The notes beneath the pieces were generated by a model that saw only the letters and a list, made by a program, of their open reading frames with translations, made no database searches and was not told where the DNA came from. Shown in pieces: positions 5,713 to 22,080 of a stretch of 27,267 bases of DNA; the stretch's first letter is position 1, and every line of letters starts with the position of its first letter. Source of the DNA: a virus; IMG/VR virus record IMGVR_UViG_3300004806_000078, positions 1 to 27,267 of that record; one strand, 5' to 3'. The position numbers were made by a program, and so were the translations under genes.

Positions 5713-6249
5713 ATGGGACGACCGCCGGGCGGAATAATGACGCAAGCACAAAAGGTCCACATCTGTGAGCAAATCGCAGATGGTAGGTCTTTGAGCTTAA
5801 TTGTAAAAGACCCTGAGATCGATGGCATCAATGTGCGGACTGTGAACCGAGAATTGAACCGCGATTCGTTCTTTTTGTCTGAATATGCCCGCGCGCGCGA
5901 GGCTTCAATCGAGATAAAACTGTCGGAAACGGAAGATATTATCCTCGGCCGTGGCGAGTTCGAGAACGTCGACTTCGAGCGCGCAAAGGAGTTGCTGAAC
6001 GATCGGCGCTGGCATGCGATCCGGCTGGCGCGCTTCCGTTATGGCGACAAGATCGACGTGCAGGCGACCGTAAAGCAGGTCGAGGGAAAGGTCATCGACG
6101 CAAAAGTGCTCGATGTGGATCAACTGCTTGCCATCCGGCAGGCGCTACAAATTGCCGCAGGGGGCGAGGATGGCTACGAAGAAGACAAAGACTATGAGTA
6201 CGAAGGACAAGATGATACAGGCGAGGATGAAGGCCTTGCAGAAGATTAA
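5713..6249 (+). CDS. terminase small subunit
   Basis: A 178-residue protein. Residues about 12-50 look like a helix-turn-helix (ICEQIADGRSLSLIVKD... VRTVNRELNR), followed by SEYARAREASIEIK and by LNDRRWHAIRLARFRYGDKI at about 95-114. The last segment is a hallmark of phage small terminase subunits (Trp, then a Tyr-Gly-Asp-Lys). The small subunit recognises the packaging site and recruits the large subunit. The tail (about 157-178) is very acidic, and its DNA is shared with the next ORF in another frame. GGAAG lies upstream. Position ahead of the large terminase supports the call. Confidence 0.85.
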   Translation: MGRPPGGIMTQAQKVHICEQIADGRSLSLIVKDPEIDGINVRTVNRELNRDSFFLSEYARAREASIEIKLSETEDIILGRGEFENVDFERAKELLNDRRWHAIRLARFRYGDKIDVQATVKQVEGKVIDAKVLDVDQLLAIRQALQIAAGGEDGYEEDKDYEYEGQDDTGEDEGLAED

Positions 6250-8371: not shown

Positions 8372-10705
8372 ATGGCCCTTGTCGCAAACCCTAATATCCG
8401 CCTTCAGGATGACGAACAGACACCGTTTGACGGCGAGGATATTTCGGTAGAGCTGGCCGACGATGAGGGTCCGCGGCAGGACATCGACGAGCACGGCAAC
8501 GTGATGTCGATCGAATTATCAGATGGGTCAATCACATTTTCCTTGGACGGGCAGCCTCTCGAGCGGGCCAAGGGCAGGGAGACCGGATGGTTCGACAATC
8601 TGGTGGAAGAGATAGATCAGGCCGAGCTGGCGAGTATCGCCCACGATCTGATGAAGGGCGTACAGGATGACCTCGACAGTCGCAAAGAGTGGATCGAAGA
8701 CCGAGCCCAAGGCATCAAGCTTTTGGGCCTCAAGGTGGAAATTCCCGGCTTGGCAGGTGCAGCGGACGGCGCACCCGTTGAAGGTATGTCACGCGTTCGG
8801 CACCCGCTCCTGCTCGAGGCAGTGCTACGGTTCCAAGCCAACGCTCGGTCAGAACTATTGCCTACGGATGGACCCGTAAAAATTAGGGAGGATAACAATA
8901 ATGCTACCCTCCAGTCCGACCAGCTTGCCAACGACCTCGAACAAGACCTTAACCACTACCTCACCGCCACTGCCAAAGAGTATTACCCTGATACCGACCG
9001 AATGCTCCTCATGCTGGGCTTTGGCGGGACGGCGTTCAAGAAGGTATATTTCTGTCCCCTACGCAACCGTCCAATTAGCGAAAGCGTTGACGCCGACGAT
9101 TTGATCGTCAACAACTCGGCCACCGACCTGTCCAATGCCAAGCGTATCACGCACCGCATTTACATGAAGTCGTCAACGGTGAAGCGGATGCAAATCCTCG
9201 GCGTATACCGTGACATTGACCTGTCCGACCCGAAAATGATCAAGTGGGATGCGGCCCAACGCGAGAAGATGGCGCAGCAGGGTATTACCAGCGAAAGCTA
9301 TAACCCAAGCGATCGGGATCGTGAGATTTATGAAATCTACTGCGAGTTGGATATCAAGGGCTTTGAGCACACCAAGCGCGGAAAGCAGACGGGCCTTGAT
9401 ATCCCGTATCGTGTAACCATTGACGCATCGACGCATGAAATCTTGTCGATCGTAAGGAATTATGATGAAGATACTAAGGACTTACCTGAAGCGAGAAGCA
9501 ATTTTGTCAAGTACACATTTGTACCGGGGATGGGCTTTTATGATCTGGGTCTCCTGCACATCCTAGGCAACACGACCAACGCGCTGACCGCTGCTTGGCG
9601 CGAAATGCTTGATGCTGGTATGTATGCCAACTTCCCCGGCTTCCTGTACGCCGACACGGGCGCGCGGCAGAATACCAATATTTTCCGTGTACCACCCGGC
9701 GGTGGTGCATTGGTCAAGACTGGCGGCATGCCGATCAGCCAAGCCGTGATGCCTTTGCCGTACAAAGACGTCGGCGCGGGCCTCATGTCGCTAGTCGAGA
9801 ATATCAATCAGACGGGTATGCGGGTTGGCGGCACGGCCGAGCAGGCAGTAGGTGAAGGCAAGCAGGACGCGCCGGTTGGCACGACGATTGCGCTGATTGA
9901 TCAGGCCACCAAGGTGCTAAACTCGGTTCACAAACGCATGCATTCGGCGCAAGCAGAAGAGTTTGAGTTGTTAGTGCGCTGTTTTCGCGAAAACCCCGAT
10001 TCATTCTGGCAGCAGAACAAACGGCCGGCCCGTAAGTGGGACGAGGAAACGTTTCTCCGCGCGCTAGATCAGGTTGATCTGGTTCCGCAGGCCGACCCAA
10101 ACACGGCGTCGCAGACCCAGCGTCTGATGAAAGTTGTGGCCTTAAAGCAAATACAGGCCCAGAACCCGTCGATGTATGATCCGATCGCGATTGACACCGC
10201 GGCGCTGCAGGCTGTCGGCTGGTCGAACCCAGAACAGTTTATGATCCCAGCCTCGGCACAGGGCACGCCTCCGCCAGAGATGCAGCAAAAAATGGCCGAA
10301 CTGCAGATCAAGAAGCAGGACAGCGACACGAAGGCAAAGTTGGCACAAGGCAAGCTTGGCCTTGATCAGGCCAAGATACAACTTGATGCGGTTAAGGCGC
10401 AGCAAGGCGGCGTCGTTGCCGGCCCATCCGATCACGAGAAACAAGTCGACAGCATTGAGCTGATCATTAAGGAAAAGCTCGCCGACGCAAAGCTTATGGA
10501 TAGCAAGCTAAAGGCAGCCCAGCTCGGCGCAGACATGAAGCGCGACCAGTTTGATGGAGAAATTAAGCGGGAAGACATGCTTGCGAAAGAACGTATTCAG
10601 ATGGTTGACCTCGCGCAGAACATCGCGGTCCACCCAGAGAGCGAGCAGGTCGTCCGCAATCTCCTCGGCAACGTCATCCCAGCCATCACGAGTGTCAAAC
10701 CATGA
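8372..10705 (+). CDS. portal protein
   Basis: A 777-residue protein of the length and layout of large podovirus-type portals. It has an acidic N-terminus, a helical core from about 80, a segment RHPLLLEAVLRFQANARSEL at about 141-160, YPDTDRMLLMLGFGGTAFKK at about 205-224, and a long region (about 380-540) typical of the portal clip and wing. The C-terminal part (about 630-750) is a long charged coiled coil with many Gln, Lys and Asp residues, a possible barrel extension. The dodecameric portal is the DNA gate of the capsid. It begins 3 bases after the terminase, and its stop overlaps the next start (ATGA). Confidence 0.9.
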   Translation: MALVANPNIRLQDDEQTPFDGEDISVELADDEGPRQDIDEHGNVMSIELSDGSITFSLDGQPLERAKGRETGWFDNLVEEIDQAELASIAHDLMKGVQDDLDSRKEWIEDRAQGIKLLGLKVEIPGLAGAADGAPVEGMSRVRHPLLLEAVLRFQANARSELLPTDGPVKIREDNNNATLQSDQLANDLEQDLNHYLTATAKEYYPDTDRMLLMLGFGGTAFKKVYFCPLRNRPISESVDADDLIVNNSATDLSNAKRITHRIYMKSSTVKRMQILGVYRDIDLSDPKMIKWDAAQREKMAQQGITSESYNPSDRDREIYEIYCELDIKGFEHTKRGKQTGLDIPYRVTIDASTHEILSIVRNYDEDTKDLPEARSNFVKYTFVPGMGFYDLGLLHILGNTTNALTAAWREMLDAGMYANFPGFLYADTGARQNTNIFRVPPGGGALVKTGGMPISQAVMPLPYKDVGAGLMSLVENINQTGMRVGGTAEQAVGEGKQDAPVGTTIALIDQATKVLNSVHKRMHSAQAEEFELLVRCFRENPDSFWQQNKRPARKWDEETFLRALDQVDLVPQADPNTASQTQRLMKVVALKQIQAQNPSMYDPIAIDTAALQAVGWSNPEQFMIPASAQGTPPPEMQQKMAELQIKKQDSDTKAKLAQGKLGLDQAKIQLDAVKAQQGGVVAGPSDHEKQVDSIELIIKEKLADAKLMDSKLKAAQLGADMKRDQFDGEIKREDMLAKERIQMVDLAQNIAVHPESEQVVRNLLGNVIPAITSVKP

Positions 10706-13700
10706 ATGACGCGCTTCGCATTGCTAAGGAAGTAAAACCTATCGATATTAATAATCCAATGTCGGTATTTCCTAAACCACAACGCATGTTCCCAGAAGAT
10801 GCCCCCGTCAAAGGTGGGCAATATTTGTCAATGCCAGACAAAACTGACATGACGGGACACAAAGCTGCTGCTGCATCTATTGGTGTAGTGCAAGGTGGTA
10901 AACCTTTTTTTACCGCATCTCGTGATGCTGTCGATGAAACGGGTACATCAGGCCGTGGCACTGCTATTGCAAAAACCAACCTATTTAAACAAAAGGCAGG
11001 TTGGAAATGGAAAGATGCTCCAGAAGGTCATGAAGATACCAACACAATTGTGTCGGTCGAACATCGTGGTAAACATCATTATGCATTGAACGCACACTTT
11101 CCAAAAGGTGTTGATCTAGCTCGTTATGAAGATTCGCCGTCTGAACCACGTCTTCGCCCAACAACACGCGGCAATGTAGAACTTGGTCCGCAAGCTGGTA
11201 GCATCCTTGTACGCGGCCGCGAACATCCTGTTTATCATCATGTAATTGTAAAAAGCGGCGGCGGAGATGTTGAAGGCTACTCCACCCGCGGAAAGGTGGC
11301 GCCGACCGAGGAGGAAATGAACGCGTTGGGTGAGCAGCTTGGCGAAGTTCGCGGCACCCGAGTGGGCCGGACAATTGGTAGATACCAAAATGCGCCGCAT
11401 CAAGAAGCTGTACGTACAATGTACAACGACCTTCTTGGCCTTGCTAAAGAAGGCCAGCCCGGCCGCAAATGGTATGAAAACTCATCTAAGCGCATTCTAC
11501 AATATTTCGGTGGCAACAAAGACGCTGCAGATAAGTTCGCGCAACTTATTGCTATTTATAGCCCACAAACAACGGTTCCAATTAATACCAGCAACGCCAT
11601 CAAAGCATACAATCGCGCGATGTCTGGGCATCAATTATGGAATGGTGACATTATTGATCGGGATCGCACGTTCAATACAATTGCTGAAGCCAACAAATAT
11701 GCTCAATCATTGGGCGGTGGCAAAGCCGGTATTACTCGTGTTCCGCTTGACGATAGCGGAAAGCGTTATTTGATCGCTCGTCATAAGCCCGGCAGCTACG
11801 AAAATATTGCTACGGCCGATCGTGATCTTAAAGCTCATCTGTTAATGAACGAAGGTGTTCCATTTGAAGGTCGAAAGACCAACAATTTTTGGAATAATCT
11901 TATGGTTCACATTGATCCAAAGCGTTTGCAAGGGTCTACGCAAGACCTTTGGATGGCGCATGCGTTTGGTTTTCCAGATGTGGCCATCGGTTCGGGCGGT
12001 AAATATGATTTTATGGAGCAATTGACCCATAAATTGGCCGATCAATTAGGTTGGCGGCCACATCAGGTACAAGCCGCTATCTGGACGGCTATCAAAACAC
12101 GCATGGAAGCCACTGCGAACGATGCTAAAAAAGCAGCCGTGGCGCATGGGATCGCCTCCATGGTCCCCGGCGACAAAGGTAAACCTATTTTTCAGGTTCA
12201 TGACGGCCATGAAGACAATTTTGCCGAATTGCACCGAAATATGGCCCTTGGCCACCCGCTCACACGTCAGCAAATTGTCGATAATGCCAAAGATTTCTCG
12301 CATTTCTTGGACCAAAACCTTGCAAATGTGTCATGGGAATCCGCTCCAAGCAAACAAATCGCGCATTTGAATGGCATTGAGGACCTTTCGCCTGAAGCAA
12401 AAGCTGAATATCACGGCAGAATTTCACATGCGTTGCAAGACGACCATGGAAATGATTTGTTGGCCAAATATTTGGGCATTATGTCGCCGGGATCGGTCGA
12501 TGCTCATGGATATTGGGAAGGTAAAACCAACCCTGTGACGCATTTGCAGGTAGGATCAACCCGTATTAAGGGCGCGGGTCAAAATCCTGCTATTGATGAG
12601 CCATCTAAAGACCTTATGGAAATTTATGCAGCAGCTAAGGGGCTTTTGCATAAGCAAGATGGCGTTGGATATCACCGCCCATTTTATAATCCAAAGGTAA
12701 CCGAAGCTAATGGCATGGAGTATTCGTTTGATAACGACCTCACGCCAGAACATATTGAGCATCTTGGTAAGCAAATTGACCAACACGCTCCCGGAACAGG
12801 AATGATTCCTGTAAATCCTCGCACTGTGAGGATGTTAAATTTTTCTGATCAACAAGGTGATCAAAGGCTCTTCCATCAGGCTGTGGATAGTGTAGTATCT
12901 AAAGCTATTCCAGATACGCACTCGGCGACGTGGCGTACTTTTGGATCAGATGGTAATCTTGTTGGAAATGATTGGAAGGTAAATCCAAATGGCGAAGACT
13001 ACATACGCAGGCTCCGTTCCGCCGGACGACCCGATGTTCTCAACTACGTATCAACTGTACTCGCCCCACGGGTCGAAGCGGTTGACGGCGCGTTCGCACA
13101 AAAGCACGGCCTCAAAACAGACCCAAAAATCGAGCAAGCAGTCCGCAACGCACACATCGAGCCACCAACACCGCCATCAGGGCCGGTAGGCGGCGGGTTC
13201 CGCCGTGGCGGTCGCACGGCATACAAAAAGGGCGGCAAGGTCGAGGGATCGATCTGGCATGCGCGTGATGCGTTTGATGAAGGCGGTGACGTCCGTGCGG
13301 GTGATAGCGTTGGCGGTCTACGCGGTGATACGGGCGGTTTTAGCGAGCATGACGTTGGCGAAGCACAAGGCGCCGTAAATGAGGCTACTGCTGCGGCGCA
13401 GGATGCTCGCCAAGGTTTGCAGCAAATGAACGAGGCGTTTGGTCCGGCACCACAAGGACCAGAGGCATCTGCGTTCCATGGCGGCGAACCACCGCCTGTA
13501 GCTGCCAATATCATGCCGCGCAGCACAACGCCGGGTGGTATATTGGCGGGGTCACAGCCACCTACGCCGGAATCCGGTGACTATAGCATCGTCAATGCGT
13601 TCTCCGCGCCGAAGCAAATGCCTGTTGGTATAACAGGAATTGGCGCGCCTGAATCCGGCATTAATATGCTGCAAACACCTGCACAGATGACATCGACAGT

Positions 13701-14637
13701 TAGCGCAGAAGCTGGCGCACCCCAAGGTGACCCAAACGATCCCGCAAGTTATTTCAAATTGCCGTCGACGCAGGTGGCGGAAGCTCCACAACATTACGAG
13801 CCTATGGCCAATAAGCTGCCCGACCTTACGGGCGTAACTGCGCCAGCTGGCAATGTGCAAACGGCGGCTTTGTCTGCTCCTACCGTGCAGCCTATGGCTC
13901 CGCATACTCTTACGCCGGATACGGCTCGCACCGATTTGACTGGTATAAGCGCGCCAGCTGGCAATATACAAATGTCTGCGTTGCCTACCCCAAATGTGCA
14001 GCCAAATGCGCCTCATACGCTTACACCAGACACTGCACGAATGGATTTGACGGGCGAAACAATGCCTACAGGGAATGTACAGGCATCCGCTCTATCTGCT
14101 CCTGCCGTGCAACCTATGGCTCCTCATTCGCTTACGCCAGATACTGCAACCGCGCCCCAGCCGTCTGTCTCGTCGGCATACACTGAAACTGCGCCATCGA
14201 TCGCAAATCAGGTTAACGCCGCAATTCCTACGCCTATGAATGGCGTTCCAACACCACCAATTCCTTTGCGCGATTTGCAAGGTCCAAGTTGGGCAGAGGG
14301 TATTGCTGGCGTGTTTGGTTTAAACACCGAACAGCAATTTAATAAATTTAATCAACAATATTTAGACCAAGGATTACATCCATTAGATGCGTACAATAAA
14401 GCAATAAACGATATTCAAACCATGCGTGCCAATCTTGACACACCGCGGCATGGCAGCAAGACACAAAAGATACAAAAGTTAATGCCAGATGGAACTTATC
14501 AATGGGTAGATGCGCCATACAAAAGGGGTGGCGGAGTTCATAGTTCACAAATTGTAGATCATGTTCTCGCGAAATTTGGTGCGCAGTTGCCCGCGTCAAA
14601 TCATCCCCTTTTTGGCAACACAGCGGGACGCCGCTAA
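10702..14637 (+). CDS. 1311-residue mosaic virion-associated protein with glycosylase-like helical domain
   Basis: The N-terminal part (about 40-200) is a mixed region without a match I know. Residues about 233-475 carry RKWYENSSKRILQYFGG, LIAIYSPQTTVPINTSNAIKA, TNNFWNNLMVHIDP, LWMAHAFGFPD and HQVQAAIWTAIK. The order (SP...N...A, then Asp-containing helix, then QAxxW) resembles a helix-hairpin-helix glycosylase-like domain of phage proteins (DUF7178-like, from memory). A third region (about 560-830) is unrecognised. A GGRTAYKKGGKVEG motif follows at about 837, then a Pro/Ala-rich tail with three 37-residue repeats. Its place after the portal suggests an internal or ejected virion protein, which is inference. 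The start overlaps the portal stop (ATGA). Confidence 0.8.
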   Translation: MNDALRIAKEVKPIDINNPMSVFPKPQRMFPEDAPVKGGQYLSMPDKTDMTGHKAAAASIGVVQGGKPFFTASRDAVDETGTSGRGTAIAKTNLFKQKAGWKWKDAPEGHEDTNTIVSVEHRGKHHYALNAHFPKGVDLARYEDSPSEPRLRPTTRGNVELGPQAGSILVRGREHPVYHHVIVKSGGGDVEGYSTRGKVAPTEEEMNALGEQLGEVRGTRVGRTIGRYQNAPHQEAVRTMYNDLLGLAKEGQPGRKWYENSSKRILQYFGGNKDAADKFAQLIAIYSPQTTVPINTSNAIKAYNRAMSGHQLWNGDIIDRDRTFNTIAEANKYAQSLGGGKAGITRVPLDDSGKRYLIARHKPGSYENIATADRDLKAHLLMNEGVPFEGRKTNNFWNNLMVHIDPKRLQGSTQDLWMAHAFGFPDVAIGSGGKYDFMEQLTHKLADQLGWRPHQVQAAIWTAIKTRMEATANDAKKAAVAHGIASMVPGDKGKPIFQVHDGHEDNFAELHRNMALGHPLTRQQIVDNAKDFSHFLDQNLANVSWESAPSKQIAHLNGIEDLSPEAKAEYHGRISHALQDDHGNDLLAKYLGIMSPGSVDAHGYWEGKTNPVTHLQVGSTRIKGAGQNPAIDEPSKDLMEIYAAAKGLLHKQDGVGYHRPFYNPKVTEANGMEYSFDNDLTPEHIEHLGKQIDQHAPGTGMIPVNPRTVRMLNFSDQQGDQRLFHQAVDSVVSKAIPDTHSATWRTFGSDGNLVGNDWKVNPNGEDYIRRLRSAGRPDVLNYVSTVLAPRVEAVDGAFAQKHGLKTDPKIEQAVRNAHIEPPTPPSGPVGGGFRRGGRTAYKKGGKVEGSIWHARDAFDEGGDVRAGDSVGGLRGDTGGFSEHDVGEAQGAVNEATAAAQDARQGLQQMNEAFGPAPQGPEASAFHGGEPPPVAANIMPRSTTPGGILAGSQPPTPESGDYSIVNAFSAPKQMPVGITGIGAPESGINMLQTPAQMTSTVSAEAGAPQGDPNDPASYFKLPSTQVAEAPQHYEPMANKLPDLTGVTAPAGNVQTAALSAPTVQPMAPHTLTPDTARTDLTGISAPAGNIQMSALPTPNVQPNAPHTLTPDTARMDLTGETMPTGNVQASALSAPAVQPMAPHSLTPDTATAPQPSVSSAYTETAPSIANQVNAAIPTPMNGVPTPPIPLRDLQGPSWAEGIAGVFGLNTEQQFNKFNQQYLDQGLHPLDAYNKAINDIQTMRANLDTPRHGSKTQKIQKLMPDGTYQWVDAPYKRGGGVHSSQIVDHVLAKFGAQLPASNHPLFGNTAGRR
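13822..14154 (+). repeat. three tandem 37-codon repeats in the mosaic protein
   Basis: Units at 13822-13932, 13933-14043 and 14044-14154 encode the pattern DLTG...AP.GN.Q..AL..P.VQP.APH.LTPDTA. The DNA has diverged in third positions, so the array is not recent. The repeat is Pro/Ala/Thr-rich and probably extended. Confidence 0.85.
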
Positions 14638-14656
14638 CAACTCTGGAGTACGTACT

Positions 14657-16321
14657 ATGGAAGAATACAAGAAAGACGACCGTGGGCGGTCTAAGGCTAA
14701 ACGCCTTACAATGAACGACCCACACACCAAGGTCGACAGTTCGACTTGGACCCCTGACGCAGCCGAAAACGCTGGCGTTAAAACCGGCGCACGTCCGCTT
14801 GTAAAGCGTCTTTACAAGAAGGGCGGCAAGGTTGTTGGCAAGCATGAGGGCAAAGATTCCGTCAAGCATGCTGGCCGTATGCCTCGTAAAGCTGGCGGTC
14901 GTACCGATAAATTAACCCCTGACAGCCTGATTAACCGCGACGTCCGCACGGCAAATGAAGTCCGTGAAGGCAAGAAGCACGAAGGCGCGTTTAAGAAGGG
15001 CGGCAAAGTCCACAAGCTCGGCGGCGGTATGGTTGGCGACAACCCATTGTCGGTGCAAGACCGCTCAATGGCCAAGGCCTCTGGCATGATGAAAAAAGGC
15101 GGCGCAGCCAAGAAACGTGCAGAAGGTGGCGATGCTATCGCTGATATGATCCGTCAGGACCAAATTGAGCAGGGCATGAAAGGCCGTGGTTTACCTGAGC
15201 GCGTTCCAATGCCTCCTCGTCGTCCGGCTGACAAGCCAATGACCCCACGCGATCCGATCCCTGCAGGCACCAATTTTGGCGCCAAAAAGGGTGGCAAGAT
15301 CAAGCATCCCGACGAGAAAGCCGATCGTCAGTTGATCAAGTCCATGATTAAGCCGGCGGCTTTTAAAGCTAAGGGCGGCAAGGCTATGCATCACGAAGAT
15401 TGCACCTGCAAAATGTGCGGTGGTGGTCGTGCGATGAAGTACAGCGGTGGCGGCATTTTCTCTGGTGACAGCAAGAAAAAGGTTCCGGGCGTTGTTCCGG
15501 GTGGCCGTACGGCGCATGCAAAGGGTGGTTCGACTATTCGCAGCCAATTCAATGATGCGTTCCGTGATGCCCGTAATCAGGGCTTGGACACGTTTGAGTT
15601 CAACGGCAAAATGTACAACACTAAAATGTTTGACCCTAGTAAAGCAGTAGGCTCAGGCCGAGGCGCATCTGGTCCAACGGCTAATCAGATGAATCCTCCA
15701 ACCCGTATGGGTGGTACTTCTACTGCTGCATATGAGCCGCCAGAGCAAAATACTTATATGCCCGGCATTCGTCAGGGTGGCGCAGGTGAACCAGCAATTG
15801 TGTTTGGTAATCCAAGTGCCGCAGAAAATGATCCTTCAAGCTACGCGGCTCGTGAACGTGCGTTTATTCAACAACAAAATCAACGCGAACGCGATAGCAT
15901 GGATGCTGCGATCAATTCTGATCTTACGCCACGCGCTGGACAACGTCCTGTTGATTTTAGTGATCAACCGAACGCTCAAGCTCGTGGCGGTCGTACAGAA
16001 CGCAATAAGGGCGGCCGCACGAAGGGCAATACGACCATCATTATTGATATGGGCGGTCGTAAGCAGATGCAGCCACAGCCTATGGGCATGGGCCAGATGC
16101 CAAACGCACCTGCCAACCCAATGCGTCAGCCGCAGCAGCAGCCACCAATGCCTCCGCAGGGCGGTATGCCTCCGATGCCTCCAATGCCTCCACAGGGCAT
16201 GCCGATGCAACGTAAATCGGGCGGCCGCACGGGTTATCCAATCGACACGGGAGCAGGCGGTGCCAATGCTCGTCTCGAGAAGATTGACGCTTATGGTCTC
16301 AAACCATCCAAGCGTAAATAA
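14657..16321 (+). CDS. Lys/Gly-rich protein with KGGK/GGRT motifs and Pro/Met-rich tail
   Basis: A 554-residue low-complexity protein starting MEEYKKDDRGRSKAKRLTMN. About ten copies of short KKGGKV-, AKGGK- or GGRT-type motifs are spread along it. Residues about 250-257 begin HHEDCTCKMCGG, a possible small metal site. After GNTTIIIDMGGRK comes a Pro/Met/Gln-rich stretch (MPPMPPMPPQGMPM) and a conserved-looking end, GGRTGYPIDTGAGG...RLEK. I recall other proteobacterial phages encoding proteins of this layout with an equivalent ending, without function. I chose ATG 14657 with GGAG 8 bases upstream. The charge suggests nucleic-acid binding in or near the virion. Confidence 0.8.
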   Translation: MEEYKKDDRGRSKAKRLTMNDPHTKVDSSTWTPDAAENAGVKTGARPLVKRLYKKGGKVVGKHEGKDSVKHAGRMPRKAGGRTDKLTPDSLINRDVRTANEVREGKKHEGAFKKGGKVHKLGGGMVGDNPLSVQDRSMAKASGMMKKGGAAKKRAEGGDAIADMIRQDQIEQGMKGRGLPERVPMPPRRPADKPMTPRDPIPAGTNFGAKKGGKIKHPDEKADRQLIKSMIKPAAFKAKGGKAMHHEDCTCKMCGGGRAMKYSGGGIFSGDSKKKVPGVVPGGRTAHAKGGSTIRSQFNDAFRDARNQGLDTFEFNGKMYNTKMFDPSKAVGSGRGASGPTANQMNPPTRMGGTSTAAYEPPEQNTYMPGIRQGGAGEPAIVFGNPSAAENDPSSYAARERAFIQQQNQRERDSMDAAINSDLTPRAGQRPVDFSDQPNAQARGGRTERNKGGRTKGNTTIIIDMGGRKQMQPQPMGMGQMPNAPANPMRQPQQQPPMPPQGGMPPMPPMPPQGMPMQRKSGGRTGYPIDTGAGGANARLEKIDAYGLKPSKRK

Positions 16322-16360
16322 AAGTTTCCCTTCGCGGTTCGGGCTGCGGAGGTGAGAGGA

Positions 16361-16399
16361 AGACCGGACGCTTTTCCAGCCCCTTGGAGCGTCCGGTCT
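16361..16399 (+). other. long stable intergenic hairpin without T-tract
   Basis: AGACCGGACGC (16361-16371) pairs perfectly with GCGTCCGGTCT (16389-16399). Inside, TCCA (16375-16378) pairs with TGGA (16385-16388) around a 6-base loop, with a 3-base bulge, giving about 15 bp. It is followed by AACCACAAATAC, not by T, so it is probably not a terminator. It lies between the 554-residue gene and the head-assembly operon. Confidence 0.65.
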
Positions 16400-16431
16400 A
16401 ACCACAAATACAAGGGGTTAAAGAGGGCAAA

Positions 16432-16626
16432 ATGACTAAAGATAAATTTGAAAACGAGCTAAAGAAATTGATTTCCCAAGCTTATCAGAATGCGCGCGAC
16501 AACATCGCTCACGGGTCAGCAATGACTTTTGACGAGTACAAGCGCCAAGTTGGCATGATTCAAGGCCTAGCGTTCGCGCTAGAGCTTATTGATGAGGCTA
16601 ACGACAATTTAAATAAGCAAGGATAA
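16432..16626 (+). CDS. small helical hypothetical protein
   Basis: A 64-residue protein starting MTKDKFENELKKLISQAYQN. The pattern (a first helix, a Tyr-containing turn FDEYKRQVG, then a helix MIQGLAFALELIDEA) is like a small protein often found at this position in phage head operons; no role is known to me. GAGGG precedes the ATG by 5-7 bases. It is the first gene after the 16361 hairpin and 5 bases from the co-chaperonin gene. Confidence 0.75.
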   Translation: MTKDKFENELKKLISQAYQNARDNIAHGSAMTFDEYKRQVGMIQGLAFALELIDEANDNLNKQG

Positions 16627-16631
16627 TCACA

Positions 16632-17024
16632 ATGCCTCCAATGAAAATGGAACACGCGATCGACCCAAAGGTTGAAATTCTAAACACCGTTGGCGATCTC
16701 AAGGATGTTGAAATTTTTAACCTCCAAGTATTGGTGGGTATTTATATCCGCCCCAACAAAACCAAGTCCGGCATCATTCTTACCGACAAATACGTCGACG
16801 AGGACAAGTATCAGGGCAAGGTTGGCCTAGTTTTAAAAATGGGCCCGTCCGCATTTAAGGACGAAACAGGCAAATGGTTCAAGAATGTCGACGTAAAGGT
16901 GGGAGATTGGGTTGTATTCCGGCCATCTGATGGCTGGTCTGTCTCAATTAACGACCAACCATGCCGCATCCTTGACGATATGAACATTCGGGGCCGCATT
17001 CAGAGCCCAGATATGGTTTGGTAA
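16632..17024 (+). CDS. GroES-like co-chaperonin
   Basis: A 130-residue protein matching the GroES (Cpn10) pattern. A strand VLVGIYIRP at about 33-41 precedes the mobile-loop segment KTKSGIILTDKY at about 43-54, with the hydrophobic tripeptide IIL that binds GroEL. Then come GKVGLVLKMGP, VDVKVGDWVVFRPSDG at about 86-101 and a C-terminal strand. Extra residues at both ends make it longer than bacterial GroES (about 97), as in phage co-chaperonins such as T4 gp31. It probably works with host GroEL to fold the capsid protein. It lies upstream of scaffold and capsid genes, which fits. Confidence 0.85.
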   Translation: MPPMKMEHAIDPKVEILNTVGDLKDVEIFNLQVLVGIYIRPNKTKSGIILTDKYVDEDKYQGKVGLVLKMGPSAFKDETGKWFKNVDVKVGDWVVFRPSDGWSVSINDQPCRILDDMNIRGRIQSPDMVW

Positions 17025-17034
17025 AGGATAAAAA

Positions 17035-17904
17035 ATGTCAGAAGATCAAATTCAATTAGAATTAGAACCTCAAGAAGACGAGATTGAGATTGTTGAGGCG
17101 CCAGAAGAGCCAAAAGTTGAGGAAAAACCCCAACTTACGGTAGAAGCTGGCATTGATGCGCTAAAAGCGCAGCTTGAAGACGAGCGCCGAGCCCGTGAAA
17201 CCGCCGAAAGGCGCGCCAAAGAGGCTATGGAGCAGGCTTCCGCAGCCAAAAATGACGCCGCGGACAGCAATATGAAGATGATTGACAATGCGATTGACAC
17301 ATTGAAGCGAAATCAAGAGATTTTAAAGCAAAATCTCCGCGATGCCGTGGCGATGGGCGATGCAGATGCTCAAGCCGACATTATGATGTCCCTCAACAAG
17401 ACAGATAATGACCTCCGTGAAGTCCAACGTGGCAAACAGCAGTACGAAGCAACCGCAAAACGCACGGCTGCCGATCCTGTCGAGGCTTTGGCGTCCCAAT
17501 TGACGCCACGGTCGGCCGAATGGATTAGGGCGCACCCTGAGGCAGTGCATGATCCGGTAATGAACCGGAAATTGCGCCGCGCACACGAAGACGCGATCGA
17601 CGATGGCCTCGTGGCCGATAGCGACGAGTACTTTTCGTATGTTGAAAACCGTCTGAATGTCAGGAAACCAGTACAGCAACAGGAGGCGGCTTTGTCAGAA
17701 GCGTCAACATCGACAGCCGGCCGTAGGGCTGCTGCACCACCTGCCGCCCCAGTATCACGTTCTGGTACTGGCACGGGCGGACGTCCAAACGTCGTAACTC
17801 TTACTCGCGCCGAGCAGGAAGCTGCCCGAGACATGGGTATGACACCAAAAGAGTACGCCGAAAACAAAATGGCCTTGGTTAAGGCCGGTAAACTTGCAGG
17901 TTAA
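17035..17904 (+). CDS. probable capsid scaffolding protein
   Basis: A 289-residue protein with an acidic N-terminus (LELEPQEDEIEIVEAPEEPK), a long charged coiled coil at about 40-140, a middle segment containing AEWIRAHPEAVHDPVMNRKL, a low-complexity Ala/Pro linker, and a short basic C-terminal helix. This layout, and its place two genes ahead of the decoration and capsid pair, is that of phage scaffolding proteins, which guide assembly and then leave. The C-terminal helix would be the coat-binding part. No protease is visible, so whether it is cleaved is unknown. Confidence 0.75.
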   Translation: MSEDQIQLELEPQEDEIEIVEAPEEPKVEEKPQLTVEAGIDALKAQLEDERRARETAERRAKEAMEQASAAKNDAADSNMKMIDNAIDTLKRNQEILKQNLRDAVAMGDADAQADIMMSLNKTDNDLREVQRGKQQYEATAKRTAADPVEALASQLTPRSAEWIRAHPEAVHDPVMNRKLRRAHEDAIDDGLVADSDEYFSYVENRLNVRKPVQQQEAALSEASTSTAGRRAAAPPAAPVSRSGTGTGGRPNVVTLTRAEQEAARDMGMTPKEYAENKMALVKAGKLAG

Positions 17905-17915
17905 TGGAGATTATT

Positions 17916-18422
17916 ATGAAGACCAATAGACCAGATGTACGCGAATCACTTCGCCCAGAAGAGCCAACTAACGATGAACGCCTCGCTAGGCGTCTTGCGG
18001 AACTCCGCAACCACAACAACGCCAACCTTGACGAAGGTGTTGACAAATTTGCCACCCCAACGCCGCCACCCGGCTGGTCGTATGAGTGGAAAATGAAGTC
18101 GGTTAATGGTTGGGAAGACCCTTCCCACTATAACCGCATCTCAATGGGCGGTTGGGAAACGGTCGAGGCCAAGCGTCATCCAGAAATGATGCCAAAGGGC
18201 TATTCCGGCGCAATTGAGCGCGAAGGTATGCTTCTTTGCGAGCGTCCCTTGGAGATTACGCAGGACCGTAAGGCCCGCGATCTGCAGAATGCCCGCAATC
18301 AGGTTAAGACCAAAGAAGGCCAGCTTGATCCAAAGGGCCGCGGCGGCTTAATGAACCGCGAGGACGCAAATGCCCGCATGAAGGTCAATAAAGACCACAA
18401 TCTGTACGTTCCAGAGCAGTGA
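17916..18422 (+). CDS. hypothetical protein between scaffold and capsid genes
   Basis: A 168-residue protein starting MKTNRPDVRESLRPEEPTND. It contains GWSYEWKMKSVNGWEDPSHY and a conserved-looking middle (ISMGGWETVEAKRHPEMMPK), then a basic helical end. I recall unnamed proteins of this kind in head operons of related phages; a head-assembly or minor capsid role is a guess from position. I chose ATG 17916 because GGAG is 6 bases upstream; the in-frame ATG at 17904 overlaps the previous stop. A strong terminator follows at once. Confidence 0.75.
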   Translation: MKTNRPDVRESLRPEEPTNDERLARRLAELRNHNNANLDEGVDKFATPTPPPGWSYEWKMKSVNGWEDPSHYNRISMGGWETVEAKRHPEMMPKGYSGAIEREGMLLCERPLEITQDRKARDLQNARNQVKTKEGQLDPKGRGGLMNREDANARMKVNKDHNLYVPEQ

Positions 18423-18425
18423 GAC

Positions 18426-18456
18426 GAGGGGGGTTTTTACCCCCCTTTTCTTTTTT
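18426..18456 (+). terminator. rho-independent terminator before the capsid genes
   Basis: Six G (18428-18433) pair with six C (18440-18445) around a six-base loop TTTTTA, followed by a T-rich tract to 18456. It starts 6 bases after the preceding stop codon and separates the scaffold operon from the capsid genes, so it may set the relative amounts of scaffold and coat. Confidence 0.88.
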
Positions 18457-18574
18457 CAAGAAGTATGTAATATTATATGCCTCGTTCTCCCCCCGGCGTG
18501 GGAGATTTGAACAATGTCCGTTTCTTAGTCGCCCCGGTGTGCGATGATGGAACTCTCTGAAAGGAGAACCCGTC
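18457..18574 (+). promoter_or_regulatory. leader region of the decoration/capsid operon
   Basis: The gap after the terminator must hold a promoter for the most highly expressed genes. TATTAT at 18471-18476 is a possible -10 with a poor -35. A hairpin follows, TCTCCC (18486-18491) with GGGAGA (18500-18505). AAAGGAGA lies upstream of the decoration start codon. I see no conserved phage-type promoter repeat. Confidence 0.3.
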
Positions 18575-19228
18575 ATGGCCAATACGTTTGCGCCCAGCGG
18601 CTTTCTACAAATTCAGGGTGGTGCAGGCGGCGCTCCTACGTTCGCTCAATCTTCCCGTCGAATTGCTTCGACAAACACGACCCCAATCTTCACGGGTGAC
18701 CCAGTACAACCAGTAACCTCGACGGCAAACGGCTACATCACGCAGGCAACTGCAGGTGGCTCGGTTCAGCTCGCAGGTATCTTTGTTGGCTGCCAATACC
18801 TCTCGACCTCGCAGAAACGCACCGTCTGGTCTTCTTATTGGCCCGGCTCGGACGCAACTGGCGACGTCATTGCTTACGTCATTGATGATCCAAACGCACG
18901 TTTCGTTGTTCAGTCCTCCGGTTCAGGCTTCCCTGTCACGGGTACGGCTACTTCGCAAACGTCTGGCGTTCAGGGTCAGCTTGTCACGTTCGCTTACTCC
19001 ACGACTGGCGCGACGTCGGGCAACTCGACGGGTGGTAACAACGCAACGGGCCGTTCGACGGCTTATGTCAATGCTACCGCAACGACCAACACGTCACCTT
19101 TCATCGTCGTTGATTACGCTGTTGGCCTCGGCAACGGCGGCGACCAGACCACGCAGTACTGCAACTTGATCGTTGGCTTCAATAACGAAGTCTGGCGTTC
19201 GAACTCTGCCGTAACTGGCATCAGCTAA
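18575..19228 (+). CDS. probable head decoration/structural protein
   Basis: A 217-residue protein without cysteine-rich or enzyme motifs, rich in Thr, Ser, Gly and beta-prone residues. The start MANTFAPSGFLQIQGGAGG, then FTGDPVQPV and the AGIFVGCQYLS segment, match the pattern (FG-like start, IFxGDPV, AGVFVGxxY) of small structural proteins encoded next to capsid genes in many phages. A Gly/Thr-rich insertion at about 127-175 is probably an exposed loop. Placement directly before the capsid gene supports a head role; decoration is inference. AAGGAGA precedes the ATG. Confidence 0.7.
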   Translation: MANTFAPSGFLQIQGGAGGAPTFAQSSRRIASTNTTPIFTGDPVQPVTSTANGYITQATAGGSVQLAGIFVGCQYLSTSQKRTVWSSYWPGSDATGDVIAYVIDDPNARFVVQSSGSGFPVTGTATSQTSGVQGQLVTFAYSTTGATSGNSTGGNNATGRSTAYVNATATTNTSPFIVVDYAVGLGNGGDQTTQYCNLIVGFNNEVWRSNSAVTGIS

Positions 19229-19241
19229 GGAGTAGAGTGTC

Positions 19242-20156
19242 ATGGCTGTTAATCTTAGTCAGATCAAAGACCTTCTCCTCCCCGGCCTCCGCGGCGTAGA
19301 AGGCAAGTACGAGATGATCCCATCTCAGTACGATAAAATCTTCACCAAGCACGATTCGAAAATGGCTCTCGAACGTACCGCAGAAATGCGCTACCTCGGA
19401 TTGGCCCAGCTGAAGACCGAAGGTGGTCAGACGTCGTTCGATTCGGGTGCAGGTGAGCGTTTCGTATACAACCAAGAGCACACTGAAATTGCTCTCGGTT
19501 ACGCGATCACCCGTAAGGCGATCGACGACAACCTCTACAAGACCCAGTTTACGCCTTCAAACCTCGGCTTGGTGGAATCGTTCCAGCAAACCAAGGAAAT
19601 CTACGGCGCAAACATCCTTAACACGGCACAGACCTATAACTCCGCAGTTGGCGGTGACGGCGTAGCACTCTGCTCGACGGCGCATCCTATCGACGGTGGT
19701 TCGGTTGCCAACACGCCTACAACTCAGGTTGACCTCAACGAAGCCACCTTGCTGAACGCAATGATCGCGATCCGCACGAACTTCCGCGACCAAGCCAACT
19801 TGAAGGTGTTTGCTCGTGGTCGTAAGTTGATTATCCCACCAGCACTTGAGCCAGTTGCTATTCGTCTCTTGAAGACGGAACTGCGCCCCGGTACTGCAGA
19901 TAACGACGTCAACGCGATCATGACAACGGCAGGCGGCTTGCCAGAAGGCTACATGGTCAACGACTTCTTGACTTCATCTTATGCTTGGTTCTTGCTCACG
20001 AACATCGACGGCCTTGCCTACATGGAACGTGTGAAGTTCGAAACGGACATGCAAGTCGACTTCGTCACTGACAACCTTCTTGTTAAGGGTTATGAGCGTT
20101 ATTCGTTCGGTTACTACAACTGGCGTTCGATCTACGGTTCATTCCCAACCTCGTAA
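19242..20156 (+). CDS. major capsid protein
   Basis: A 304-residue protein starting MAVNLSQIKDLLLPGLRGVE. It has a helical region at about 75-130, the segment DGVALCSTAHPIDGG at about 138-152, and a C-terminal half with IIPPALEPVAIRLL and WFLLTNIDGLAYMERV. The CSTAHP segment followed by an N-rich turn is typical of major head proteins of the Mu-like group with an HK97-type fold. Length suits an unprocessed coat protein. Its position after scaffold and decoration genes, and the strong TAAGGAG site formed with the previous stop codon, fit a highly expressed gene. Confidence 0.88.
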   Translation: MAVNLSQIKDLLLPGLRGVEGKYEMIPSQYDKIFTKHDSKMALERTAEMRYLGLAQLKTEGGQTSFDSGAGERFVYNQEHTEIALGYAITRKAIDDNLYKTQFTPSNLGLVESFQQTKEIYGANILNTAQTYNSAVGGDGVALCSTAHPIDGGSVANTPTTQVDLNEATLLNAMIAIRTNFRDQANLKVFARGRKLIIPPALEPVAIRLLKTELRPGTADNDVNAIMTTAGGLPEGYMVNDFLTSSYAWFLLTNIDGLAYMERVKFETDMQVDFVTDNLLVKGYERYSFGYYNWRSIYGSFPTS

Positions 20157-20168
20157 GGAGAAGGCACT

Positions 20169-21398
20169 ATGGCTGATACCGCATTCTCCGGTCCGATTAT
20201 TGTATTTGGGCAAAACCCAACACAACCTTCGGACTACAACCCTGATCTAGGCTCCTCGCTATTTTATGCGGGGGGCGGCATCCTTGATCCGCGCACTCCT
20301 TTTACTTACCTTCCCGGTGAGTCACAGGCAGCGCAGGATTTTGGATGGTATGGCTTCAGTGACATTGTTTCGTTCACTGGCGTTCCATACACCAACGCAG
20401 CGGCAGCCATCGTGGCTTCTGCAAACGCAACGAGTGCAACTCTTACGCTCGTTTCAACTAACTCCGCGACCACTGGCGTTTATTATTCTTCGGTATTTAC
20501 CCGTTCGGATACAGGCGCAACGGATACGGTTCTTGCTCTTGATGCTTATGCTTCAATCACCGCTTCGGCAACGAACGGCGTTCTGACGGTTACGGCAAAC
20601 AGCGGCATGCCAATCGGACCCGGCATGGTTCTTCTTTCATCGTCTACGGCGGTAACGGGTGGAACTCTTGGTGCATCTTCTGGCGTCTATATCAATTCTC
20701 AGATTACGACAACGGGGACTTCATCAACGGTTGGTAACGGACAAACTGGTACTTATCAGCTTAGTCAGAACGTAACTTTCACGTCTGGTACGGTCACTTT
20801 GGCTTATCCAAACGTGCAAACTTGCGCTATTCCGACGAACATCCAAACCCCTTCGATTTGGCTTTGGAACCCAATGGCCATGGTTGGCCGTGCTGTAAGC
20901 GTTACTGCTGCAGCAAGTGCTACTGCTACAACCGCAACTGTTAATGGCTACGATGTCTACGGATATCCAATGTCGGAAAACATTACGATTTCGGCAGGTA
21001 ACGCTGTTAACGGTAAGAAAGCATTCAAGTACATCAAGAGCGTTGTTCTCAACGCAGCCGATGCTACCCATGCCTATTCCGTTGGTACAACCGCGATCGT
21101 TGGTCTTCCTGTTCGTTCGGATACGGCTGCTGAAGTTGTGGTCAACTCCGGTAACTCTCAGACTGCTTTGAGTGTTAACACGGGTTTTGCTGCAAACGGG
21201 TTCTTACCTGCTGATCGTACTACACCGTCCGCCACAACGGGCGATGTCCGTGGCACGATTGACCTTGCAAATGCGTCGGGTGTCAATCTTACGCCGTCCA
21301 CTGGCACGAACAAATACTCGTTCCGCCAGATTCCGCAGGCCTACAATGTCCAGTCAGCGACTGGCTTGTTCGGCCTTACCCAGTACTACAACTTCTAA
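20169..21398 (+). CDS. beta-rich virion structural protein
   Basis: A 409-residue protein starting MADTAFSGPIIVFGQNPTQP, rich in Thr, Ser and Ala and probably all beta. Residues about 125-205 contain GVLTVTANSGMPIGPGMVLL and end near GQTGTYQLSQNVTFTSGTVT. This pattern (G-x-LTV, xxGxxxxGxxL, then GTYxLSxxQ) is one I recall as a beta domain inserted in many phage structural proteins. The rest has no clear match. It directly follows the capsid gene with a TAAGGAG site, so it is a likely abundant head component or fibre; no finer role is shown. Confidence 0.65.
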   Translation: MADTAFSGPIIVFGQNPTQPSDYNPDLGSSLFYAGGGILDPRTPFTYLPGESQAAQDFGWYGFSDIVSFTGVPYTNAAAAIVASANATSATLTLVSTNSATTGVYYSSVFTRSDTGATDTVLALDAYASITASATNGVLTVTANSGMPIGPGMVLLSSSTAVTGGTLGASSGVYINSQITTTGTSSTVGNGQTGTYQLSQNVTFTSGTVTLAYPNVQTCAIPTNIQTPSIWLWNPMAMVGRAVSVTAAASATATTATVNGYDVYGYPMSENITISAGNAVNGKKAFKYIKSVVLNAADATHAYSVGTTAIVGLPVRSDTAAEVVVNSGNSQTALSVNTGFAANGFLPADRTTPSATTGDVRGTIDLANASGVNLTPSTGTNKYSFRQIPQAYNVQSATGLFGLTQYYNF

Positions 21399-21408
21399 GG
21401 AGTGAACC

Positions 21409-21783
21409 ATGAAGGGTCACAAAGGACATCACCACGGCGTTATGCACGCTGGTGTACATCACAAACACCCTCGTGCAGAGCACAAGAAGGGTGGTAAGGT
21501 CGAATCGCCAATGGTAGGCGATTGGGATCACGACGAGTCGCCTAAGGATATCTACGAAGGCAAAGACTCGAACGTTGCTAAGGAAGCGAAGCAGCGTAAG
21601 CGCGGCGGAATGGCCAAGCACCACGTAGGTCACCATGAAGGTCACCACGCTCATCACCACGCTGGCCGCAAGCCACGCAAGTCCGGTGGTGCAGCCTCTG
21701 GTTCCAACATGCACCCACTTTCTTCTGCACATAAGGGTACGGAGCCAAAGGCTCATCACTCTTACGAGCCTGAAGAACACTAA
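21409..21783 (+). CDS. histidine-rich basic protein with KGGK/RKSGG motifs
   Basis: A 124-residue protein with 24 histidines (about 19%) and many Lys and Gly. It opens MKGHKGHHHGVMHAGVHHKH, has HKKGGKVES at about 24-32, KQRKRGGMAKHH near the middle, a second His cluster at about 74-85 and RKPRKSGGAASG after that. The motifs match those in the 554- and 1311-residue proteins. The His clusters should bind Zn, Ni or Cu ions, and the charge should bind nucleic acid; both are inference. It lies among virion genes with a strong TAAGGAG site, and a G/C hairpin follows. Confidence 0.8.
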   Translation: MKGHKGHHHGVMHAGVHHKHPRAEHKKGGKVESPMVGDWDHDESPKDIYEGKDSNVAKEAKQRKRGGMAKHHVGHHEGHHAHHHAGRKPRKSGGAASGSNMHPLSSAHKGTEPKAHHSYEPEEH

Positions 21784-21831: not shown

Positions 21832-22080
21832 ATGACTGCAGCTTGGACGCGTTCTGAAGGCAAATCTCCGTCTGGTGGGCTTAATGAACGCGGTCGTCAA
21901 TCGGCCCGCGCTGAAGGTCACCACCTAAAGGCACCGACTAAAGATGCGGATAATCCGCGTCATGACAATTTTCGGGCAAGAATGTGTGGGATGAAAGAAA
22001 AACTTACATCCGCAAAAACGGCCCATGACCCTAATAGCAGGATCAATCTTGCTTTAAAAAAATGGGGCGTAAAATGCTAA
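21832..22080 (+). CDS. DUF6321-type small protein
   Basis: An 82-residue protein starting MTAAWTRSEGKSPSGGLNER. It matches the pattern of the DUF6321 family as I know it: AWxRxEGKxPxGGLNxxGR, then LKAPTKD, NFRARMCGMK and the end LTSAKTAHDPNSRINLALKKW. All these blocks are in order and the length is usual. The function of the family is unknown; it is common near virion genes of phages. AAGGAG lies 8 bases upstream. Its end overlaps the endonuclease gene by 7 bases. Confidence 0.85.
   Translation: MTAAWTRSEGKSPSGGLNERGRQSARAEGHHLKAPTKDADNPRHDNFRARMCGMKEKLTSAKTAHDPNSRINLALKKWGVKC

Follow-up and report, generated by a model that had tools for sequence, protein, structure and literature searches.

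How tailed phages other than T4 choose the proteins that they inject is largely unknown. In T4, the targeting sequence (CTS) is N-terminal and is removed by the prohead protease. The internal proteins that carry it differ widely and have this sequence as their sole conserved part; they are early anti-host proteins loaded in the head core (PMC3012670). In family 1 encapsulins, short and mostly C-terminal cargo peptides, borne by diverse enzymes, dock inside an HK97-type shell (PMC8346489). Phage polyvalent proteins were predicted by Iyer, Burroughs and Aravind in 2017 to be packaged and injected; the passages of that article drawn on here describe no common head-targeting tag (PMC5512222).

Here, we describe a short glycine–lysine signal, in many cases with a small terminal helix after it, on unrelated head-adjacent proteins of a worldwide aquatic phage family; the signal looks like an address label for head cargo. 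Like the T4 CTS, it is a terminal peptide conserved on unrelated bodies; unlike it, the phage tag lies mainly at the C-terminus or internally and has a GG core. It resembles the encapsulin cargo peptides in being short, mostly C-terminal and carried by diverse proteins, but its form, GGxVxxALxI, differs from their consensus SDGSLGIGSLKRS, and its putative docking would take place in a DNA-filled phage head rather than an encapsulin shell. We give even chances to the reading of the motif as a short linear tag that can be reused to mark proteins for loading into the head; packaging of the tagged proteins is predicted from gene context and by analogy. The prediction that polyvalent proteins are packaged came with no known signal. 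If this reading is true, the tag would allow injected effectors to be predicted from the genomes of a very common group of aquatic phages and would offer a peptide with which proteins could be loaded into phage heads. A description of the tag was absent from the open literature searched, which is weak evidence of novelty.

The window, a whole viral record of 27,267 bases, encodes a large terminase, a 409-aa protein, an HNH-like protein (a label given from reading the sequence) and tail genes, along with the features listed below. Metagenome bins conflict on the host, and a PDB sequence search with the capsid and portal proteins as queries returned no relatives.

5713-6249: Sf6-like small terminase.
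8372..10705, + strand: portal (SU10_portal PF23899, phrog_1216), without the motif.
10702..14637, + strand: 1311-aa mosaic large protein (p1311), putative cargo, first gene after the portal.
14657..16321, + strand: 554-aa basic, motif-rich protein (p554).
16632..17024, + strand: GroES-like co-chaperonin (Cpn10), the constant right-hand neighbour of p554.
17035..17904, + strand: 289-aa acidic protein, presumed scaffold from its position and composition.
19242..20156, + strand: major capsid protein (phrog_371), at 80-92% identity across nearly all relatives with motif genes.
21409..21783, + strand: 124-aa His-rich small protein.
21832-22080: DUF6321 protein, directly after the small His-rich protein.

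Under the strict pattern [KR]x(0-1)GG[KR], p554 contains 11 motifs against 0.66 expected, a count reached by 0 of 5000 composition shuffles. The same shuffling gave 0.25 expected for p1311, which holds 4 (p 0.0002), and 0.13 for the His-rich protein, which holds 2 (p 0.015) and has three [KR]xGG sites in total (KKGGKV, KRGGM and RKSGG). The original prediction, made from the sequence alone, had put the motif about ten times in the 554-residue protein, at least once in the 1311-residue protein and three times in the histidine-rich one, and these figures bear it out, the third under the looser pattern. A motif frequency equal to that expected from composition would have spoken against it; composition shuffles rule out chance as the source of the motif in all three proteins, which are otherwise dissimilar, as it had stated, and all come from the head-gene block. 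Within the window, the motif is absent from the terminase, portal, GroES-like, presumed scaffold, capsid and tail proteins. Codons of the repeats vary from copy to copy, so a recent DNA repeat is ruled out as the source and selection acts on the peptide. Repeated KGG is also found in the KGG repeat proteins (PF10685, GsiB/YciG type); p1311, p554 and the His-rich protein gave no PF10685 match at E 0.05, and identity with this Pfam family was ruled out.

Relatives were collected by a capsid search, which found at least 597 related stretches, from which 80 loci were fetched. Additional scans with the large-protein tag, the small-protein family and two divergent GroES genes led to more than 200 loci, with ORFs called mechanically and certain contigs represented by more than one overlapping fragment. 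The search across related phages that the original prediction had proposed found the motif in the same three gene slots in these loci, with [KR]-x-G-G as its invariant core. Motif density per 100 aa, taken over the fetched loci, was 1.94 for the p554 family, 2.22 for the His family and 0.37 for the p1311 family. Portal (54.7k aa), capsid (53.9k aa) and the GroES, scaffold-like, head and tail families all scored 0, and terminase gave a single match in 22.9k aa.

Every small-protein locus having a capsid gene carries one and the same capsid lineage, at 80-92% identity. In loci from a wide range of freshwater and other sites, capsid identity stays at 80-92% while portal identity often falls to 52-65% and GroES identity to 45-65%. 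At greater divergence (capsid 58-69%), relatives retain short p554-like and small proteins, and some of them have few or no cargo genes in the stretch from portal to p554. The p554 gene is present in 95 of the loci that have both portal and GroES genes; the others are L233 and L234, with a shorter p554, L142, with none, and six distant named phages. Distant named phages, at only 24-42% capsid identity, have no motif genes in these slots, and tblastn of named phages with p554 or small-protein queries gave no matches. A phage GroES-like gene adjoins p554 in nearly all relatives, and distant pelagiphages also carry one near the portal gene. In the Planktothrix phage Pag-Yong1, whose host is named (L315:19433-19684), an 83-aa post-capsid protein ends in KKGGPVHAGQGSGVGRLKRSK, similar to the p554 C-terminus.

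The interval between portal and p554 holds one to three large genes in relatives, encoding up to 1710 aa. Like polyvalent proteins, these are large multidomain proteins near late virion genes, with ART-PolyVal, InPase, Peptidase_M15, GNAT, phage lysozyme and LPD23 domains, as well as matches to ParB-like and endolysin-like PHROGs, several of the domain matches falling below curated cut-offs. Examples are a 739-aa protein of locus L082 (GNAT, M15 and ART-PolyVal), an 898-aa protein of the same locus (InPase) and a protein of L183 (LPD23). The p1311 of the window is modular and lies after the portal, and DUF7178 (aa 250-467) is the sole family matched in it.

Large proteins carry the tag in the consensus form GG-x-V/I-x-x-A-L-x-I/L, mostly inside the final 60 residues but in some cases where modules join within the chain, on bodies without detectable similarity. 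Similar ends on unrelated bodies include ARGGKAEQKPTKEALIHKSLEIIHHMLKSR, KSGGPVVDRALMLTCKKA and FKKGGKVRSALMIAKGLKKG; whole-protein homology as the reason for the common C-terminus was ruled out by clustering the bodies without their ends. The compact tag occurs 51 times in 115 large proteins (18 of the 51 internal), compared with 2.0 in shuffles and none in 494k aa of control proteins. At the C-terminus, a tag was found in 18 of 32 body clusters, against 0.16 expected and 0 of 718 control ends. The pattern was fixed on this first set, which had been inspected, and a second set was restricted to bodies without detectable match to the first; in these held-out proteins, a small set of nine groups, four groups carried the tag (0.12 in shuffles; 0 of 352 control ends). 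Unsupervised Gibbs sampling of one representative from each of 21 body groups recovered the same helix as a [KHQ][AS]LxxI motif lying some 10-15 residues before the C-terminus. Its score was 194.8; the null, which had fewer restarts, scored 150.8 (sd 3.3). Tagged ORFs on the same strand number 79 upstream of GroES and 3 downstream. Under the strict tag pattern, about half of the body groups have no recognizable tag.

Besides this, two points count against the head-loading reading: some of the same data had served to derive the tag pattern, and p1311 has only a variant form. Tag-like ends away from the head genes would, moreover, fit a head-only signal poorly unless the protein concerned is also packaged. 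Such ends were seen at L145-L149 and in genomes G001, G006 and G008, on a large protein encoded away from head genes. Large proteins of 568-1184 aa at L145-L149, L327:3294-5636 (-) and L320:10515-12692 (-), in three genomes located away from the head genes, have a tag-like end helix, DDAIVHALRIAKGKV or DDAIATALHIAKRT; those of them that were scanned gave no family match.

The tag also coincides with the joints of p1311, which is a mosaic of modules 1-192, 190-523, 524-840 and 840-1311, each common to different partners. The first module, residues 1-192, shows about 80% identity with modules of other architectures, 190-523 is common to L004 and 524-840 to L095, and homology to several other large proteins begins at aa 839-840, inside the tag.

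11251..11277, + strand: KSGGGDVEG motif, aa 184-192 of p1311, ending the N-terminal module.
13195..13299, + strand: double tag of p1311, GFRRGGRTAYKKGGKVEGSIWHARDAFDEGGDVRA, aa 832-866, with the adjacent motif pair GFRRGGRTAYKKGGKVEGSIWH.
14503..14634, + strand: C-terminal tag region of p1311, WVDAPYKRGGGVHSSQIVDHVLAKFGAQLPAS...AGRR, aa 1268-1311, in which VL replaces AL.

The end of p1311 is the variant KRGGGVHSSQIVDHVLAK (IVDHVL), which the strict tag pattern does not match. An AlphaFold model of part of p1311 was uninformative (mean pLDDT 34). Of 55 internal module junctions counted in the large proteins as a whole, 34 have a GG motif no more than 15 aa away, compared with 10.9 (sd 2.9) for random positions. 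This enrichment, together with the change of p1311 homology blocks at KSGGGDVEG and KKGGKVEG, speaks for the idea that the motifs serve as flexible linkers and points of recombination between modules, retained because they tolerate fusion and having no binding role. Passive linkers, however, would not retain an invariant [KR]xGG and an ALxI helix at chain ends, nor would they keep to three slots alone. In p554 and the small protein, the sites stand in a fixed context; we regard the linker explanation as rather improbable.

Other features of the large proteins concern their N-termini and the far part of p1311. By eye, the N-termini of several large proteins are alike (MNDALRIAKEVKPI, MMDALKLAKEVKPV and MKDVLRLAKTVLP; 10702-10743 in p1311), possibly an N-terminal counterpart of the tag; some cargo has N-terminal helices, which the unsupervised search did not recover. 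A 111 bp tandem repeat occupies 13840-14051, where the 1311-aa gene encodes a C-terminal part of low complexity.

In p554, whose conserved start is 14657 and not 14561, the motif stands in a fixed framework. An alignment of 31 to 32 homologues shows near-invariant KxGG sites at aa 56, 115, 212 and 522, with 80 and 282 close to this level; conservation is 0.67 for motif glycines versus 0.43 for other glycines (p 0.005). Within the family, near-invariant glycines mark five or six sites. The AlphaFold2 model is mostly of low confidence or disordered (mean pLDDT 54), with confident stretches at residues about 290-325 and 393-420, and Foldseek returned uncharacterised uncultured-phage relatives only, with no PDB match at E 0.001. 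The small-protein family has as its hallmark two KxGG sites and an invariant GSNMNPLSSAxxGTxPKG block. Histidine was rejected as the defining trait of the small protein, relatives having 0-23% His.

14867..14908, + strand: HAGRMPRKAGGRTD in p554, the 11-residue module common to p554 and the His-rich protein.
15530..15631, + strand: helix and beta-hairpin insert of p554, SQFNDAFRDARNQGLDTFEFNGKMYNT, aa 292-325, lying between GG motifs and confident in AlphaFold2.
16199..16318, + strand: conserved p554 C-terminus, RKxGGRT...GAGGxxxRLEK.
21655..21744, + strand: conserved C-terminal block of the small protein, HHAGRKPRKSGGAASGSNMHPLSSAHKGTE.

The 11-residue module, with the consensus [HRN]xxRxPRK[SA]GG, is 76% identical between p554 and the small protein within a genome versus 68% between genomes (p 0.0002), and 71% for the nearest relative. 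Concerted change is thereby suggested, although a partial Mantel test was not significant (p 0.15) once GroES distance was controlled for. The proposal that motifs had been exchanged among genes is supported by the module common to the two proteins and by the junctions at GG.

Nucleic-acid binding, a place in the portal lumen and condensate formation had been the roles first suggested as plausible for the motif. In a nucleic-acid-binding account, the KxGG repeats would bind DNA or RNA, p554 and the small protein would act as protamine-like neutralisers, and the cargo would travel with the DNA by means of the same element. The charge of both families is in keeping with this: p554 has 99 K+R and 54 D+E, its family has a net charge of +27 to +66 (median +47), and the small-protein family one of +3 to +16. 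So are the mostly unstructured, low-confidence model of p554 and the contact of lysines of T4 internal head proteins with DNA phosphates (PMC3012670). Charge neutralisation would not, however, call for the observed spacing, the invariant glycines or the flanks KVDSSxWTP, GSNMNPLSSA and GRLEK; the ALxI helix of the tag is not obviously DNA-binding, and no nucleic-acid-binding family was matched. We consider DNA or RNA binding an unlikely explanation of the motif, and the terminal GG-helix tag on polyvalent-type cargo supports head targeting at least as much.

Placement of the tags at ends and joints, in helix-GG or GG-helix order as in T4 targeting sequences, would also suit a processing site, at which chains would be cut after GG during head maturation, freeing modules and basic peptides. 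The T4 system has a prohead protease, whereas ten records of the phage lineage, of about 52-61 kb, gave no match to Prok-JAB, Peptidase_S78, C39 or ClpP, and no protease gene was recognised from portal to capsid. Since these four candidate protease families are missing from the ten records, the processing account is weakened, and we think it very improbable.

If the motif is instead a head-loading tag, the genes between portal and p554 would encode exchangeable polyvalent-type cargo, tagged mostly near the C-terminus and also at fusion joints, and p554 and the small post-capsid protein would be basic, largely unstructured core proteins carrying many tag copies. The tag would find its docking site on the scaffold, the lining of the capsid or the core; candidate readers are the 289-aa presumed scaffold, the capsid lining and p554. 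The cargo would then enter the head before or with the DNA and be ejected at infection; both the docking partner and the ejection of tagged cargo are what we infer. More tentatively, and with prospects somewhat short of even, these elements may amount to a modular head-loading code, in which a GG-helix tag at the ends and inner joints of swappable polyvalent effectors is read by p554 and the small protein, as a dedicated pair of basic core proteins in a globally distributed aquatic phage lineage, and proteins that acquire it are injected. Any gene gaining the tag would, under such a code, become injected cargo.

Among the loci, the helix and beta-hairpin insert occurs only in the p554 of close relatives. 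The protein also has a cysteine cluster, CTCKMC (15401-15418, aa 249-254), a possible metal site, which takes the form DCSCKMC or DCSCKQC in some relatives. A protein of the form FCARS...DPNSR...RRWKC, resembling the DUF6321 protein of the window, comes after the capsid gene in HTVC023P and DSL-LC04.
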